Below are positions 27,949 to 35,826 of a stretch of 64,000 nucleotides of DNA, piece by piece. The notes under the pieces were generated by a model. That model was not told where the DNA came from. It did no database searches and saw only the letters and a list, made by a program, of their open reading frames with translations. The stretch comes from Halosimplex litoreum (GTDB lineage Archaea > Halobacteriota > Halobacteria > Halobacteriales > Haloarculaceae): contig NZ_CP065856.1 in NCBI RefSeq assembly GCF_016065055.1, positions 3,161,836 to 3,225,835 on the forward strand, written 5' to 3'. Every line of letters begins with the position of its first letter. Positions within the stretch are counted from its first letter, which is position 1. Made by a program: the position numbers and the translations under genes.

Positions 27949-28033
27949 GCGAGGGTGGCTGAGCTAGGCCAAAGGCGGCGGGCTTAAGACCCGCTCCCGT
28001 AGGGGTCCGTGGGTTCGAATCCCACCCCTCGCA
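27949..28033 (+). tRNA. tRNA-Leu (anticodon UAA)
   Basis: An 85-nt class II tRNA with a long variable arm. The acceptor stem GCGAGGG pairs with CCCTCGC at 28026-28032, with discriminator A. The anticodon stem GCGGG/CCCGC encloses the loop CTTAAGA, which gives anticodon UAA and reads UUA. The T-loop GGTTCGAATCC is canonical. CCA is not encoded. Decayed copies of its 3' 22 bases follow downstream. Confidence 0.93.
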
Positions 28034-28284
28034 CTCTGTCGCTCACACATCGTGAGCGACGAGTGCGTTCTGGGATTCGAGCCCTGCGAGTCGCAGCCCG
28101 CGCAGCGAAGCGAGCAGGACCGTCTCGCTCCGGTTCGAATCCCACCCCTCGCATGAGTGGTCGGCGCGTCCGCGCGCCGACCCGAATCGTCCGGGTGGCG
28201 ATTCGAAGCCTATCAGTCGCGCGCAGCGAACGGCGTGAGCGAGCACGTCTGATTTCGGTTCGAATCCCATCCCCCGCACTCTGT
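28034..28284 (+). repeat. Two tandem modules ending in tRNA-Leu 3' fragments
   Basis: GGTTCGAATCCCACCCCTCGC, the tRNA 3' end, recurs at 28133-28153 and in altered form at 28258-28279. Each copy is preceded by a similar 100-nt stretch with GATTCGA, AGTCGC, CGCGCAGCGAA and GCGAGCA. CACTCTGTCG follows both the true tRNA and the second copy. This looks like repeated integration or duplication at the tRNA 3' end. Open frames translated across it are not genes. Confidence 0.75.
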
Positions 28285-28387
28285 CGTACCCGACCAGTGA
28301 GCGACGAGTGAACGGGAACGATACGACCGGGCCGCTCGGCCCGGTACGACCCGAAAACGCTTGTACGGGTCGCTCGATCGCGCTGTC

Positions 28388-29471: not shown

Positions 29472-30335
29472 CTACTGGTCGCTGATCACGTCGCTGGCGA
29501 TGTTGCGCCCTCGGGCTTTCAGGCGCACGTCGCGGCGGACGCGCTTCTCGCGGAGGATGCCCTCCTCGACGAGGCGGTCGAAGACTGTCTCGACGTCGTC
29601 GACCTCCAGCCCGACGAACTCGGGGATTTCGAACGGCGAGACGCCCGAATACAGCGCCATCAGGACCTCCATCTCCGTCTGGTCGAGGTCGGCGTCGGTG
29701 GCGTTCTGGAGCTCGCCCTGGCGGACGAGCGATTCGAGGATGGAGACGTGGCGGCTCGTCCCCGAGACGTACGTCTGGACGCTGGTACCCTCGTCGTCGG
29801 TGTGTTCGACTTCGAGGACGCGGCGCTCGTCGCCCCGGACCGTCCCCTCTCTGGCGTCGACGGCGCCCACGTCGTCGAGTTCGATCTCGACGAACTGGCC
29901 GCTCGCGACGCCCAGCCCGACCACGTCGGACTCGACGTTGATCCGTCCTTTCTCCCAGGCGGTGTCCCGGACGACCCCACCCTCGACGGCGGGGTGTTTG
30001 ACGAGGACGACCTCGCCGTCGAGCAGCGCGGTGTAGAGGTGTTCTTCGAACGCGTCGGCGTCGGTGGGCGCGATCAGGAACACGTCGGACCCGGTCTGGA
30101 CCGAGAAGTAGCCCGAGACGGCCGTCATCGCCTGGTTGGCGTTCTTGCGGTTCTTGACGGTGCTGACCTTCGCCAGGGCGATCTGTCGCTTGCCCTCGTT
30201 GCTGGCGAGGACGAGCCGCCTGTTCGACAGGAGGATGCGTCCGCTCAGCCACTCCAGGTCGTTGACCTTCCGGCCGCTCTTGACGACCTGGACGAACCGG
30301 CCCTGGGTGTCCGCCAGCGCGCGCTCGTCGCTCAC
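29472..30335 (-). CDS. cheF: CheF, adaptor between Che proteins and the archaellum
   Basis: A 287-residue archaeal chemotaxis protein of the DUF439/CheF family. It binds phosphorylated CheY and links it to the archaellum switch. The sequence shows the family's long beta-rich N-terminal domain and a C-terminal winged-helix-like segment (VGLEVDDVETVFDRLVEEGILREKRVRRD). It starts with GTG, which overlaps the stop of a 22-codon micro-ORF as GTGA. A GGAGGTGA ribosome site lies inside that micro-ORF. It is the last gene of the leftward che operon. Confidence 0.92.
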   Translation of the reverse strand: MSDERALADTQGRFVQVVKSGRKVNDLEWLSGRILLSNRRLVLASNEGKRQIALAKVSTVKNRKNANQAMTAVSGYFSVQTGSDVFLIAPTDADAFEEHLYTALLDGEVVLVKHPAVEGGVVRDTAWEKGRINVESDVVGLGVASGQFVEIELDDVGAVDAREGTVRGDERRVLEVEHTDDEGTSVQTYVSGTSRHVSILESLVRQGELQNATDADLDQTEMEVLMALYSGVSPFEIPEFVGLEVDDVETVFDRLVEEGILREKRVRRDVRLKARGRNIASDVISDQ

Positions 30336-30400
30336 GGGTAGTCACCTCCCGCGTCTCGGGCGAGACCGGGCGGCGTCGCCAGTGCGCCAGCGTCGGTCAT
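30332..30400 (-). CDS. 22-residue bridging micro-ORF between the HEAT gene and cheF
   Basis: ATG at 30400-30398 overlaps the HEAT-gene stop as ATGA. The 22-codon frame (MTDAGALATPPGLARDAGGD, Tyr, Pro) ends in TGA at 30334-30332, which overlaps the cheF GTG as GTGA. It fills the only gap between the two genes exactly and contains the cheF ribosome site GGAGGTGA. It may serve translational coupling, and the peptide itself may be irrelevant. Confidence 0.4.
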   Translation of the reverse strand: MTDAGALATPPGLARDAGGDYP

Positions 30401-31623
30401 CCCCGACCACCGAGTTTCGAGATGGCCGAGAAGGCTCGCTTTCGGATCTCTTCCGATTCGGTCTCGTCGAGCAGCGCGTCGATGCGCTGGCGGGCGCGCT
30501 CGCCGCCGACCTTGCCGAGGGTGAAGACGGCCTGGGCGCGAGCCGAAGTCGGAGCGTCCGCGTCGTCGACGAGGGCGAGCAGGCGGTCCTCGACGGCGTC
30601 GCCGCCGAGTTCGGCGAGACTCGTCGCCGCGAACTGGCCCGTCATCTGGTCGTCGGCCGACAGCGCGTCGACGAGCGCGTCGACGACGCGGTCTCGCTCT
30701 TCGGCCTCGGTGACGCGACCCAGCAGCCACGCGGTGTTGCGCTGTTGGGCGGCCTGTCGGCTCTCCTCCAGTATCTCCACGAGCGGGACGACGACGTTGC
30801 GGTCGTCGGTCTCGCTGAGCTGCTCGACGACGGTCTCGCGGATCTCGTGGCTCTGCTGGGTGGGCACGTTCGCGAGCAACTCGACCAGCGAGTAGACGGC
30901 GGTCCGGCGGACGGTCGGGGAGTCGTCGGTCAGCGAGGCGACGAGGTACTCGACGGGCTGGGCGTTCGGGAAGTTGCCGAACGCGCCGACGGCCACCCGT
31001 CGCACTCGTTCGTCGCCGTCCTCGTAGAGCGGGAGCAGGGCCGACAGCGCCTGCCGGTTGCCGATCGACCCCAGCGCTTCGGCGGCCTCCCGACGGACCT
31101 TCGGGTTCGCGTCCGTCAGCAGCCCCTCCAGGCCGTCCGTCGCCCGCGAGTCGGCGACCTGGCCGCAGGCGCGAGCGGCGCGGGCTCGCACGCGCGGGTC
31201 GGAGTCGTCGAACCGTTCGACGAGTTTCGGGACTGCCTCGGTCTCTTCGAGGGCGCCCAGGCCGTTGGCGGCGGCCATCCGGAGTTCCGGCACGCCGGCG
31301 TCCAGTGCCTTCGCGAACGCCTGGGCTTTCATCCAGTCGGCGCCGTCGCCCATGTCGACGCCGGCCATCTCCGCGATCAGCTGTTCGATGGCGTCGCCCC
31401 CGAGCTGGTCGAGCGAGTCGACCGCGGCGGCGGTCACCGCGGCGCTGTCGTCGTCGCTCGCGACGCTCACGAGGGCGTTGACCACGTCCGCGCGGTCGTC
31501 GTGCTCGTCGAAGTTGCCGAGCAGTTCGGCGGCGCGGGCGCGCAGCTCCGGCTTGTCGCTGCGGCGCATGACGCCGATGAGCTGCTGTACGTCGCCGTCG
31601 CGTTCGAGCTGGTAGAGTGACAT
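30397..31623 (-). CDS. HEAT-repeat chemotaxis accessory protein
   Basis: A 408-residue protein built almost wholly of PBS-lyase-type HEAT repeats (recurring VRARAARACGQVAD and VRREAAEALGSIG units about 30 residues apart). In Halobacterium salinarum a HEAT-repeat protein encoded next to CheF binds CheF and takes part in taxis signalling; this gene sits in the same place. It overlaps cheR by 1 nt upstream and the micro-ORF by ATGA downstream. The solenoid has no catalytic residues, so a scaffold role is likely. Confidence 0.88.
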   Translation of the reverse strand: MSLYQLERDGDVQQLIGVMRRSDKPELRARAAELLGNFDEHDDRADVVNALVSVASDDDSAAVTAAAVDSLDQLGGDAIEQLIAEMAGVDMGDGADWMKAQAFAKALDAGVPELRMAAANGLGALEETEAVPKLVERFDDSDPRVRARAARACGQVADSRATDGLEGLLTDANPKVRREAAEALGSIGNRQALSALLPLYEDGDERVRRVAVGAFGNFPNAQPVEYLVASLTDDSPTVRRTAVYSLVELLANVPTQQSHEIRETVVEQLSETDDRNVVVPLVEILEESRQAAQQRNTAWLLGRVTEAEERDRVVDALVDALSADDQMTGQFAATSLAELGGDAVEDRLLALVDDADAPTSARAQAVFTLGKVGGERARQRIDALLDETESEEIRKRAFSAISKLGGRG

Positions 31624-32432
31624 CAGGCGCGTCTGTAGATGCGGTGTTTCTTCTCGACCGGGTCGTAGCGGTCGCGGAACTCCGCGGGCAGGGTCTCGGT
31701 CATGCCGATCATCAGGTAGCCCGCCTCGGTCAGCGACCCGGTGATCGTCTCGAAGATGGGGACTTTGTAGTCGGCGTCGATGTAGATGAGCAGGTTCCGA
31801 CAGCACACCAGGTCGAAGTCCCGTTTCTCGGGCCCGCGGATGAGGTCGTGGCGCTCGAAGTCGACGAGGTCCGACACGCGGTCGGTGACGGTGAACACGT
31901 CGCCCTCGCGGTCGACGTACGGCTCGGTGGCCGAGAGGGGTTCGAGCTCCGCCGCGATATCGGTCGTCTGGGACGTCTCGTAGCGGCCGGCGCGGGCCGT
32001 CCGGAGGATGTCGCGGTTGATGTCGGTGCCGAGGATCTCGACCCGTCGGGCGTCGATCTCCTCGTCGTCGAGCGCGAGCATCGCGATCGAGTACGGCTCG
32101 CGCCCGTCCGCGCAGGGGGCGCTCCAGACGGAGACTCGCCGCTGTTCGGCGGTCAGATCGCGGAGGACGCCTCGCAGCGACTCCCAGGCCTCGGGGTTGC
32201 GAAAGAAGCCGGTGACGTTGATCGACAGCGAGTCGAGCAGTTGCTCGCGCTCGCCCTCGTCGTCCTCCAGCAGTCGCTGGTACGGTCGGTAGCTGTCGGT
32301 GTCGGTGCGGCGCATCCGGGCGTTGATCCGCCGGTCGAGGTAGGCGTCGTTGTAGAACCCCGACTCGAAGTCCAGTTCGCGTTCGATGTAGCTCAACAGC
32401 TCGTCGAACTCGGGGCCGCGCTCCTGTCTCAT
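31623..32432 (-). CDS. cheR: CheR, transducer methyltransferase
   Basis: A 269-residue protein that methylates glutamates on transducers using SAM. The N-terminal helical domain (FYNDAYLDRRINARMRR) is followed by the SAM-binding domain with VSVWSAPCADGREPYSIAM, LGTDINRDIL and DLVCCRNLLIYI. All are standard CheR motifs. Its ATG overlaps the stop of a 15-codon micro-ORF as ATGA, and its stop overlaps the HEAT-gene start by 1 nt. It antagonises CheB in adaptation. Confidence 0.95.
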   Translation of the reverse strand: MRQERGPEFDELLSYIERELDFESGFYNDAYLDRRINARMRRTDTDSYRPYQRLLEDDEGEREQLLDSLSINVTGFFRNPEAWESLRGVLRDLTAEQRRVSVWSAPCADGREPYSIAMLALDDEEIDARRVEILGTDINRDILRTARAGRYETSQTTDIAAELEPLSATEPYVDREGDVFTVTDRVSDLVDFERHDLIRGPEKRDFDLVCCRNLLIYIDADYKVPIFETITGSLTEAGYLMIGMTETLPAEFRDRYDPVEKKHRIYRRA

Positions 32433-32476
32433 CGTACTCTCCGGTCTCCGTCGACCAGTTCTCGCCCCAGCGTCAT
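32429..32476 (-). CDS. 15-residue bridging micro-ORF between cheA and cheR
   Basis: ATG at 32476-32474 overlaps the cheA stop as TGATG. The 15-codon frame (MTLGRELVDGDRRVR) ends in TGA at 32431-32429 and overlaps the cheR ATG as ATGA. It fills the gap between the two genes exactly. The same arrangement occurs between the HEAT gene and cheF and between arlH and arlI, which suggests a coupling relay rather than chance. Confidence 0.4.
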   Translation of the reverse strand: MTLGRELVDGDRRVR

Positions 32477-34704
32477 CAAAGCGTCACCACGTCGAGGATG
32501 TGGACGATGTTTCCGTCGCCCAGCACGGCCGTCCCGCTGAGGCCGGGCGTCCCGCTGAGGATCCCCTCCAGCGGCTTGACGACGACCTCCTCCTGGCTGT
32601 TCACTTGGTCGCAACGCAGCGCTACCTGCCGTTCGGATTCGCGGATCCGGACGAGCATGCCCTCGTCGCCACCTGCACCGCCCGCCCCCGTGCCGGCACC
32701 GGCGACCGCCGGGCCAGCGTCGTCTGCCTCGGTCGGTCCGCCCGCGATCTCGGCGCGCTCACCGGTCGCCTCCGTCGGCTCGCCACCGTCGGTTGCGGCC
32801 GTTTCGGCTCCTTCGGCGTCGGCGGTGGCGTGCGTGCCGGGCACGTCGAAGCGCTCGGCGAGGTCGACGACGGGGTAGATGTCGTCGTTGTGCTTGATCA
32901 CGTCGTTGCCGTTGATCTGCTTGACGGCGGAGGTGCGGGTGATCTCGTCGACGTTTTTCAGTGGGACGCCGTACTCCTCGTCGCCGACCTCGACGAAGAG
33001 GACTTTGACGATCGCCATCGTCACCGGGAGGCGCAGCGAGACCGTCGTCCCCTCGCCGGGGTCGGAGTCGACGCTGACCGAGCCGTCGAGCTGCGTGACG
33101 GTGTCGTGGACTACGTCCATGCCGACGCCGCGGCCGCTGGTGTCGGTCACCTCGTCGGCCGTCGAGAAGCCTGGGTGGAAGACCAGGTCGTAGATCGCCG
33201 AGTCGTTCATGGCCTCGATCTCGTCCGAAGAGCGGACGCCCTTCTCGATGGCCTTGCGCTTGATGCCGTCCACGTCGAGACCGGCTCCGTCGTCCTCGAC
33301 CTCGATGATGACGTGGTCCCGCTCGCGCGAGGCGCGCAGTTCGACCTGTCCGGTCGGGTCCTTCCCGGCCGCCTCGCGCTCGGCGGGCGGTTCGATCCCG
33401 TGGTCGAGCGCGTTGCGGATGATGTGCATCAGCGGGTCGGAGATCTCGGTGAGGATCGTCCTGTCGAGCTCGATGTCCTCGCCCTCGATAGTGAACTCGA
33501 CGTCCTTGTCGAGCTCCCGGGAGAGGTCCCGGACCATCCGCGGGAACTTGCCGACGACCTTCTTCAGCGGGATGAGCCGCATGTCCATCACCGTGTTCTG
33601 GAGGTTCGCCGTGATCTTGTCGAGTTCGTTGAGATTCTCCGAGGCGCCCGCCAGGTCGTCGGTCTCGACGGCCCGGCGCAGTTTGATACGGCTGGTGACC
33701 AGCTGCTCGACCAGCCCGTGCAGGTCGTCGAGCTGGTCGACGTCGACGCGAACGGACTTGATCTCGTCGACGTGTGCGCCGTCGTCGCCTCCCGACGCGG
33801 TCGGCTGAGCGCCGCCGGTGGCGTCGGGGCCTCCGGGCGCACCCGTGTCGGCGTCGACACCGGTGTCGTCCGCGCCGTTTTCGTCCCCGGCGTCCAGCGC
33901 GTCGGTCACGTCGACCACGTCCGCGTCCTCGACGGCGCCGATGGCGTCGAGTTCCGCCGCCGCGGCGTCGGCGTCGGGCGCGTCGAGCGCGAGCGCGAAG
34001 GTGTCCTCGAACTCGCCGTCTTCGATCCCCTCGCGGTCGGGGTCGGCGTCGAGCAGGTCGAAGGTGTCGGTGATGCGGTCGAGCGCGAGCATCGCGTCGA
34101 CGCCGAGCATGTCGCCCTCGCCGACCGACACGTCCGCTTGGACGACCCGGCCCTCGGCGTCGCCGGCCGACACGTCGAAGCTCTCGACCGCCGCGGCGGC
34201 GGCGGCGCCGTCCGCGGCACCTGCGTGGGCGGTTTCGCCGTCGCTGGCACCGCTCGTACCCTCGCTCCCTGCGTCGACACCGCCGGCGGCCGGGTCGGGC
34301 GCCTCGCCGGACTCGGCGTCGAAGTCGCTCTCCTCCATGACGGCGCGCAACTGCGCGACCATCTCGTCGGTGTCGGTGGTCGACTCGCCCTCGCTCTCGA
34401 TCTCGCGGACGATGACCTCGATCATGTCCACGCCCGCGAAGATGAGATCCATCCGCTCGGGGGTGACCGCCATCTCGTCCTGGCGCATCGCGTCGAGCAG
34501 GTCCTCGATGGCGTGGGCCAGGTTGCTGGCGTCCTCGAACCCCATCGCGCCGAAGTTGCCCTTCAGCGTGTGGGCCGTCCGGAAGATCTGGTCCATCGCG
34601 GCCTGGTCGTCCGGGTCGCTCTCCAGGTCGAGCAGCGAGTTGTTCAGGTCGGTGATCGCTTCCTCACTCTCTCGGATAAACGCGTCAAGATACTGGTCGT
34701 CCAT
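32476..34704 (-). CDS. cheA: CheA, chemotaxis histidine kinase
   Basis: A 742-residue protein. The HPt domain carries phospho-accepting His45 (TAHTLKGN). A long acidic linker follows (about 110-310). The dimerisation helices start at KSVRVDVDQLDDLHGLVEQL. The ATPase domain has HIIRNALDHGIEPPAER, EVEDDGAGLD and GRGVGMDVV. The C-terminal CheW-like domain is split by an Ala/Gly/Glu-rich insert of about 70 residues before GMLVRIRESERQVALRC. It abuts cheB and phosphorylates CheY and CheB. Confidence 0.95.
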   Translation of the reverse strand: MDDQYLDAFIRESEEAITDLNNSLLDLESDPDDQAAMDQIFRTAHTLKGNFGAMGFEDASNLAHAIEDLLDAMRQDEMAVTPERMDLIFAGVDMIEVIVREIESEGESTTDTDEMVAQLRAVMEESDFDAESGEAPDPAAGGVDAGSEGTSGASDGETAHAGAADGAAAAAAVESFDVSAGDAEGRVVQADVSVGEGDMLGVDAMLALDRITDTFDLLDADPDREGIEDGEFEDTFALALDAPDADAAAAELDAIGAVEDADVVDVTDALDAGDENGADDTGVDADTGAPGGPDATGGAQPTASGGDDGAHVDEIKSVRVDVDQLDDLHGLVEQLVTSRIKLRRAVETDDLAGASENLNELDKITANLQNTVMDMRLIPLKKVVGKFPRMVRDLSRELDKDVEFTIEGEDIELDRTILTEISDPLMHIIRNALDHGIEPPAEREAAGKDPTGQVELRASRERDHVIIEVEDDGAGLDVDGIKRKAIEKGVRSSDEIEAMNDSAIYDLVFHPGFSTADEVTDTSGRGVGMDVVHDTVTQLDGSVSVDSDPGEGTTVSLRLPVTMAIVKVLFVEVGDEEYGVPLKNVDEITRTSAVKQINGNDVIKHNDDIYPVVDLAERFDVPGTHATADAEGAETAATDGGEPTEATGERAEIAGGPTEADDAGPAVAGAGTGAGGAGGDEGMLVRIRESERQVALRCDQVNSQEEVVVKPLEGILSGTPGLSGTAVLGDGNIVHILDVVTL

Positions 34705-35826
34705 TTAGGTCACCTCGAATGCGTCGAGTATCGCCGCCGCCACGTCGTTGACCGGTGCCACGCCGTCGACACAGCCGGTCTCGATGGCCCGTTTGGGCAT
34801 CCCGAAGACCGCCGACGTGGCTTCGTCCTGTGCGACCGTGTAGCCGCCGGCCTCGTGGATCGCGCGAACGCCGCGTGCGCCGTCTTCGCCCATCCCGGTC
34901 AGGATGACGCCGGCGAGTGGGCTCGTGATCCGTTCGGCAGCCGTCTGCATCGTCACGTCGACCGCGGGCCTGACGTTGTTGACCGGCGGGTCCTGGGTCA
35001 GTCCGACCCGGAGGCGCCCGCGGCGATAGCCCGTCACTTCCATGTGGTAGTCGCCCGCGGCGATGAGCGCCTCGCCGCCACCGATCCGATCGCCGTCTTC
35101 GGCCTCACGCACGCTGTACTCGCTGCGGGCGTCCAGGCGTTCGGCGAAGCGACCGGTGAACCCGCTGGGCATGTGCTGGACGACCAGCACGCGCAGGTCC
35201 GCCGCCAGCGGCAGGTCCGAGAGGACTTGCTCGACGACGGTCGGGCCGCCCGTCGAGGAGCCGACGACGACCGTCGGGTCGTCGACGTACTCCGTCGTCG
35301 CGGCCCCGGCGTCGGAACCTACCGTTTCGGCGCCGCCCGCGTCGTCAGTGCCGACACCGCCGGTGTCGACCCCCGACCCGGCGGTCCGGGCGGAGGCCAC
35401 GTCCGAGGAGTCGGTCGGGTCGACGGCCGCGACGGACTCGACGACGTCGACGAGCTGGTCCTGCATGCGGGACATCTCCATCGACACCTCGCCGCCGGGC
35501 TTGCGGAAGAAGTCGACGGCGCCTTTCTCCAGGGCCTGGAACGTCACGTCGGCGTTCTCGTCGGTGTGGGCGGACAGCATCAGGATCGGGGTCGGCCGGG
35601 TCGACATGATCCGGTCGGTCGCCTCGATGCCGTTCATCTCCGGCATCTCCACGTCCATCGTCACCACGTCGGGGTCGGTCTCGACGACCGCGTCGACGGC
35701 TTCGCGACCGTTCTTGGCCACGGCGACCACGTCGATGCCGCTCTCCTCCAGGATGTCGGAGATGACGCTCCGCATGAAGTGCGAGTCGTCGGCGACGACC
35801 GCTCGCGGCGTCGAGCGTACCGTCAT
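34705..35826 (-). CDS. cheB: CheB, protein-glutamate methylesterase
   Basis: A 373-residue two-domain protein. The receiver (1-125) carries phosphoacceptor Asp58 (VVTMDVEMPEMNG). A 55-residue Gly/Thr-rich linker follows. The catalytic domain has the nucleophile Ser in VVVGSSTGGP, His in VVQHMPSGFT and Asp in LTGMGEDGARG. It removes methyl groups from transducers when phosphorylated by CheA. It is the first gene of the leftward operon, and its stop codon directly touches the cheA start. It is divergent from cheW. Confidence 0.95.
   Translation of the reverse strand: MTVRSTPRAVVADDSHFMRSVISDILEESGIDVVAVAKNGREAVDAVVETDPDVVTMDVEMPEMNGIEATDRIMSTRPTPILMLSAHTDENADVTFQALEKGAVDFFRKPGGEVSMEMSRMQDQLVDVVESVAAVDPTDSSDVASARTAGSGVDTGGVGTDDAGGAETVGSDAGAATTEYVDDPTVVVGSSTGGPTVVEQVLSDLPLAADLRVLVVQHMPSGFTGRFAERLDARSEYSVREAEDGDRIGGGEALIAAGDYHMEVTGYRRGRLRVGLTQDPPVNNVRPAVDVTMQTAAERITSPLAGVILTGMGEDGARGVRAIHEAGGYTVAQDEATSAVFGMPKRAIETGCVDGVAPVNDVAAAILDAFEVT

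Follow-up and report, generated by a model that had tools for sequence, protein, structure and literature searches.

The chemotaxis operon cheB–cheA–cheR–HEAT–cheF of Halosimplex litoreum contains two intergenic gaps, and each is filled exactly by a micro-open reading frame (micro-ORF) that starts in the stop codon of the upstream gene and ends in the start codon of the downstream gene. The operon lies in a stretch of 64,000 nucleotides (nt) of contig NZ_CP065856.1 (positions 3,161,836 to 3,225,835), here called the window; its genome is labeled G000, other genomes carry G-numbers, and loci carry L-numbers. HEAT denotes the gene of a HEAT-repeat chemotaxis protein. Here, we propose that the two frames are relay ORFs that would maintain termination–reinitiation coupling where the gaps alone would interrupt it, and we assign this reading a probability of about three in four. 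The arrangement is conserved among haloarchaea, since 72 of 103 distinct cheA–cheR junctions are direct and a further 22 are bridged.

All genes of the operon are encoded on the minus strand. The 3′ end of cheA (32476..34704; Pfam Hpt, P2, H-kinase_dim, HATPase_c, and CheW) is CTTTGATGACG, and the ATG of micro-ORF 1 (32429..32476) uses the A of the cheA TGA, giving TGATG. The frame comprises 15 codons, MTLGRELVDGDRRVR, and its TGA lies within the start of cheR (ATGA; CGATGAGA), which occupies 31623..32432 (Pfam CheR and CheR_N). A Shine–Dalgarno-like (SD) motif for cheR, GGAG, is located inside the micro-ORF at 32439..32442. The HEAT gene (30397..31623; Pfam HEAT_2 and HEAT_PBS), whose product is OE2401F-like by position and domain (OE2401F is described in PMC2666748), ends in GGATGACC, and the ATG of micro-ORF 2 (30332..30400) overlaps its stop as ATGA. 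This second frame has 22 codons, MTDAGALATPPGLARDAGGDYP, with a TGA within the GTG start of cheF (GTGA; CCGTGAGC), the final gene of the operon (29472..30335; Pfam CheF-arch). The SD-like motif for cheF, GGAGGTGA (30342..30349, read from 30349 to 30342), lies within micro-ORF 2, and the TGA it contains is out of frame relative to the micro-ORF. At both of its ends, each micro-ORF thus meets a stop/start overlap of 4 or 1 nt, and the gaps they close measure 43 nt (cheA–cheR) and 61 nt (HEAT–cheF). Micro-ORFs and motifs were read directly from the sequence. At the remaining junctions, the stop of cheB (34705..35826; response regulator and methylesterase, Pfam Response_reg and CheB_methylest) directly adjoins the cheA start (TAA/ATG), and the cheR stop and HEAT start overlap as TGATG. 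The initial annotation had described both micro-ORFs with their terminal overlaps, the SD-like site for cheF inside the second, and the overlap or abutment of the other che genes; the micro-ORFs and overlaps proved exact to the base, and the other two descriptions were likewise correct.

The cheA–cheR junction carries the main evidence. CheR loci were collected from one contig set (36 loci) and from a second set in which 313 of 391 genomes matched, giving 30 loci and 60 further stretches. CheR matched over a long stretch at 126 loci, 120 of which were preceded by cheA, and removal of identical junctions left 103. Their spacing was −4 nt in 53, −1 nt in 9, 0–5 nt in 10, and at least 10 nt in 31, so that 72 overlap or sit no more than 5 nt apart. 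Among the 31 gapped junctions, 22 were exactly bridged, compared with 3.9–4.3 expected under two nulls. In the first, each gap was shuffled with a random length change of 0–2 nt and the flanks were retained, which gave 4.0 expected bridges in the main run; in the second, actual intergenic sequence from G000 took the place of the gap, which gave 4.2–4.3. One of the 22 (L008) crosses its gap by two chained frames. Relative to the cheA stop, the micro-ORF start is overlapping, directly adjacent, or 1 nt further downstream, and because all three frames relative to cheA were observed, the micro-ORFs are not explained by one remnant of a longer cheA. On the CheR tree, the bridged state requires at least six changes; when nine lineages were taken as units, each with its largest chance value, P(≥6 of 9) was 0.005. 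Collapsing similar gap sequences left 14 of 19 clusters bridged (2.5 expected), where the first member represents its cluster; the cluster represented by L010, which is bridged, also contains three unbridged loci. An SD motif was present in 17 of the 22 bridged junctions, and 17 of the 19 gaps with an SD motif and without an A/T-rich box were bridged. Families f2 and f3 possess CheR and added no cheA–cheR junctions. At cheR–HEAT, 4 of 88 distinct junctions were gapped and 1 was bridged, too few for a test.

Within Halosimplex, both junctions were bridged in all seven genomes examined (the window, L005, L006, L007, L008, L042, and L276). The cheA–cheR gaps were 28, 43, 63, 100, 100, 100, and 124 nt, the 63-nt one being that of L008, and the HEAT–cheF gaps were 22, 49, 49, 49, 61, 85, and 85 nt. 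L276 (genome G416) was added once the pattern had already been defined and fits it twice, its cheA–cheR gap being 100 nt and its HEAT–cheF gap 22 nt. G419 (71% complete), an eighth member of the genus, gave no CheF match. The expectation raised with the initial annotation, that relatives would keep frame and overlaps while the peptide varies, was therefore borne out by the bridging of both gaps at differing lengths in all seven genomes, together with the repeated changes on the tree and the lack of codon periodicity described below. G000 also carries two more CheF-like genes near each other elsewhere (G000:C1:143654-146352; L002 and L003), and six other genomes of the genus have two extra CheF-like matches apiece.

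The HEAT–cheF junction gave a mixed result. Among 79 distinct junctions, 62 had a gap of at least 10 nt, and 24 of these were bridged, compared with 11.4 expected by shuffling or 13.8–15.0 with real intergenic DNA. The mixture arises because the gaps are split by the SD motif and by an A/T-rich box: 18 of the 21 gaps with an SD motif were bridged (about 5 expected), as were 14 of the 15 with the motif and without the box. Many gaps lacking the motif, for example in Haloarcula and Halorientalis, contain boxes such as GGATTAAGAC or GGTTAATAC, which look promoter-like. In L011–L040 and other loci outside Halosimplex, these boxes point to a separate promoter for cheF, which Halosimplex would lack. 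A search for CheF on plasmids yielded no matches.

We infer from these patterns that translation of the micro-ORFs takes place and passes ribosomes on from one gene to the next. A ribosome finishing cheA (or HEAT) would restart at the ATG overlapping the stop, read 15 (or 22) throw-away codons, and stop at the TGA overlapping the next start, where, with the SD motif just upstream, it would restart on cheR (or cheF). The peptides would have no selected function, and the unbroken ribosome path would be the object of selection. In Haloferax volcanii, overlapping genes are coupled by termination–reinitiation (PMC6728339), and coupling is 40–60% at a distance of 13–14 nt and near zero at 22–23 nt (PMC10666635). 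Because coupling is lost over such distances, a 43- or 61-nt gap would be expected to uncouple cheR or cheF, and a relay would be needed; a frame with a 4- or 1-nt overlap at each end would bring coupling back. SD motifs aid reinitiation in some gene pairs (PMC6728339) and gave no help to initiation in H. volcanii 5′ untranslated regions (UTRs) (PMC3986360), a combination that fits their placement within the micro-ORFs. The Halobacterium salinarum homologues of HEAT and CheF interact, and joint action has been proposed for them (PMC2666748), which makes them the kind of pair where coupling is proposed. In Escherichia coli, coupled expression of neighboring che genes improved chemotaxis (PMC2716512). 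As to evolution, a direct −4 nt pair may have gained extra DNA, and the only variants retained would be those that were open, in frame, and ending at the next start, except where the downstream gene gained its own promoter.

The open frame across each gap would also be required if translation served to maintain ribosome occupancy of the nascent RNA, and thereby prevented FttA or a nuclease from cutting the operon short, rather than to supply the next start with ribosomes. A review points to FttA as the probable source of polarity in archaea (PMC12548453), and many HEAT–cheF frames finish near, rather than on, the cheF start. Frames begun at the HEAT stop finished within 15 nt of cheF in 57 of 62 cases (19 expected), and in 38 of 41 cases without an SD motif (12.4 expected), many of them coming from near-identical Haloarcula loci. 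Protection from polarity does not, however, need an exact 4-nt overlap, yet the gapped che junctions bearing an SD motif were exactly bridged in 35 of 40 cases (17/19 and 18/21). We therefore regard this explanation as unlikely, although it is the strongest of the alternatives. Less likely again is that translation of the gap unfolds an RNA structure masking the SD motif of the next gene, by an mgtQ-like or classical unfolding mechanism. The bacterial mgtQ operates in this manner (PMC8092293), and the SD motif of cheF in the window is predicted to be paired. Across the bridged loci with an SD motif, however, predicted SD accessibility was about equal to that of flank-shuffled controls (0.52 versus 0.48, 0.54 versus 0.51, and 0.33 versus 0.29), so that an SD-hiding hairpin is unsupported. 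Moreover, initiation in H. volcanii 5′ UTRs was not driven by SD motifs (PMC3986360), so that an exposed SD alone may not suffice.

Translation would be expected under any of these models, including one in which the micro-ORFs are true small-protein genes and their products contribute to taxis, and L005, L042, and L006 have visibly related peptides at micro-ORF 1. Between genera, the cheA–cheR peptides are unrelated and range from 5 to 42 codons, and one species crosses the gap by two chained frames. GC contents at the three codon positions are flat in the bridging micro-ORFs (0.71/0.66/0.73 at cheA–cheR and 0.65/0.69/0.62 at HEAT–cheF), compared with about 0.7/0.4/0.92 in the che genes. The codon periodicity of a functional peptide is thus absent, and a role for the peptide is disfavored and very improbable. 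Conserved codons of the kind found in the upstream ORF mgtQ were not detected either, the peptides differing between genera. Because the peptides are unrelated and the codon signal is absent, the path is kept and the product is not. The possibility that the micro-ORFs hold a relic of the ancestral start, left by a tandem duplication, was considered by comparing their first bases with the start of the downstream gene. The resemblance exceeded that of controls only slightly: 5.2 of 16 positions matched at cheA–cheR (4.4 in controls), and the clearest case was a pair with a DtxR-type repressor (7.3 versus 5.1). Searches for further copies of the che, nuo, and other gaps gave only short, weak matches elsewhere in the DNA examined.

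Several observations weigh against the relay reading. In a sample of G000 (the window and 60 other 20-kb stretches, genes called with a simple caller, same-strand gaps of 10–150 nt), the other gaps were bridged in 17 of 306 cases, about the chance level of 13.2, and in G161 2 of 71 were bridged (3.1 expected). HEAT–cheF gaps without an SD motif were bridged at the chance level (6/41, 6.9 expected), and most HEAT–cheF gaps outside Halosimplex carry an A/T-rich box and no SD motif. The classes by SD motif and A/T-rich box were defined post hoc, with the data already seen. Nine gapped cheA–cheR junctions were unbridged, namely seven in genus g6 and two of Halorientalis type (L038 and L067), in which the frame overshoots the exact overlap by 7 and 10 nt. 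Finally, two bridged control pairs of G000 without an SD motif were kept in 3 of 7 junctions (poorly) and 5 of 7 (well); the first count includes the pair's own locus and leaves aside a further locus whose genes were too distant, and the second leaves aside a further locus that had no upstream match. Because of these controls, the link to the SD motif is a tendency rather than a law. Genus g6 (L088 and L090–L095) is the sole clade with consistently unbridged cheA–cheR gaps, and its cheR may have its own promoter.

Bridging as a genome-wide rule was rejected, since the other gaps of G000 are overall at chance and the excess is confined to gaps with an SD motif and no A/T-rich box (5/28 bridged, 1.6 expected). 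The shuffle null itself is calibrated, because gaps without the motif gave 11 of 261 bridged against 10.95 expected. With this null, the chance of an exact bridge was about 0.04 at cheA–cheR and 0.28 at HEAT–cheF. The initial annotation had held that bridging of both gaps in one genome was unlikely by chance; given these values and the near-chance level of the remaining gaps, the argument was too strong and holds only modestly, and significance drawn from this single genome is not decisive. Such frames would be common by coincidence in GC-rich DNA, where stops are few and ATGA starts are everywhere, and both the chance level elsewhere in G000 and the value at HEAT–cheF are in keeping with this, but the excess over shuffled and real intergenic DNA, the minimum of six changes on the tree, and the bridging of both gaps in all seven Halosimplex genomes examined leave chance a very small probability.

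Five bridged G000 pairs with an SD motif and no A/T-rich box were traced into relatives (counts include G000). At nuoH–nuoI, 19 of 27 gapped loci across the family were bridged (3.8 expected; gaps of 28–55 nt; L138 2156-2189 and L307–L336). A pair encoding an AAA-domain and an RNA_binding protein was bridged in 8 of 8 loci (2.7 expected), and the DtxR-type repressor pair in 6 of 6 (1.6 expected), a seventh species overlapping directly. Both gapped loci of a sulphur-transport pair were bridged and the remaining loci were direct. Likewise, both gapped loci of the L4–L23 pair (rpl4–rpl23) were bridged, the other 28 of 30 haloarchaea having a direct −4 junction. The conservation of bridging owes partly to shared descent.

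At rpl4–rpl23, the bridge is part of a dispersed element. A 58-nt insert (62 nt with one ATGA) that has an ATGA at each end and carries a bridging frame of 21 codons was found with 71–83% identity at rpl4–rpl23 of G000 (L172 9513-9570, minus strand) and of G010, which belongs to another family, at rpl2–rps19 of G002, and at etfB–etfA on Natrarchaeobaculum plasmids; rpl2 and rps19 were named from their protein sequences. Copies are located at L289 ~1439-1500, L297 ~2483-2544, and L381 901-966. Repeated copies at unrelated gene pairs are true of this element and untrue of the che micro-ORFs. Differences between its copies are spread roughly evenly over codon positions, and its SD motif sits in a strong predicted hairpin (z −3.15). 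No further copies were found among the loci examined, a similarity at a nuo junction proved to be a plain direct overlap, and a search of phages gave no precedent. By analogy, the element looks like an archaeal analogue of a mycobacterial MIRU. At somewhat less than even odds, haloarchaea may possess a general device for operon repair, in which a meaningless relay ORF is selected for frame and end-points alone whenever a coupled pair becomes separated, allowing a single ribosome to read the entire message, together with the 62-nt element spreading as a portable relay, the archaeal counterpart of a MIRU.

Apart from the operon, a tRNA-like gene in the window (27953-28290) is followed by two more copies of its 3′ end, namely GGTTCGAATCCCACCCCTCGCA and a variant of it, as read by eye. 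These copies resemble the scars that integration at a tRNA gene would leave.

DNA that is free in sequence and product and fixed in frame and ends would provide a natural test of the range of archaeal post-termination scanning, and the relay pattern agrees with experiments showing that ribosomes hardly scan. It would explain the wide, promoterless operon gaps in these genomes, and some unannotated "small proteins" from ribosome profiling may represent a path for the ribosome and not a product. A gap whose length lies in a bridging frame with ATGA ends may serve as a comparative signature to map the gene pairs that need tight coupling.

Among known systems, termination–reinitiation at −4 and −1 pairs in H. 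volcanii and E. coli (PMC6728339 and PMC10666635) shares with the micro-ORF ends the ATGA, GTGA, or TGATG overlap and an SD motif near the downstream start, and cheA–cheR is itself a direct −4 pair in most relatives. Those pairs consist of two annotated genes, whereas the che micro-ORFs are non-conserved frames between genes that would preserve coupling across 22–124 nt; the main texts of both papers do not mention small, short, bridging, or unannotated ORFs. The chemotaxis operons of E. coli (PMC2716512) likewise couple adjacent che genes, which was proposed to cut noise in protein ratios, but they are bacterial, and the available part of that report mentions no micro-ORFs. mgtQ of the Salmonella mgtCBRU operon (PMC8092293) is also a tiny frame between operon genes that promotes the downstream gene; it differs in starting 51 nt past the upstream stop with its own SD, in leaving its 219-nt region unbridged, and in its use of stem-loops and Asp/Glu codons. 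Intergenic small ORFs of Enterobacteriaceae were counted when they started or ended within 10 nt of their neighbors (PMC11188072), and for the minigene of axe-txe the distance to the next start outweighs minigene length (PMC8708949). The available portions of these two papers describe no frame that bridges a gap exactly on both sides and is conserved in frame as its length drifts. Beyond the systems named here, searches of an open-access library gave no precedent for archaeal two-sided exact bridging in which the frame is kept and both length and sequence are free to drift. Mycobacterial MIRUs (reviewed in PMC12548453) come closest and resemble the che micro-ORFs in being short frames at a start codon with −4 coupling that leave expression nearly intact. 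MIRUs are apparently mobile repeats, whereas the che micro-ORFs have no clear copies and arose or changed in several lineages; the 62-nt element is much closer to a MIRU than they are. We file this bridging as a new form of translational coupling.

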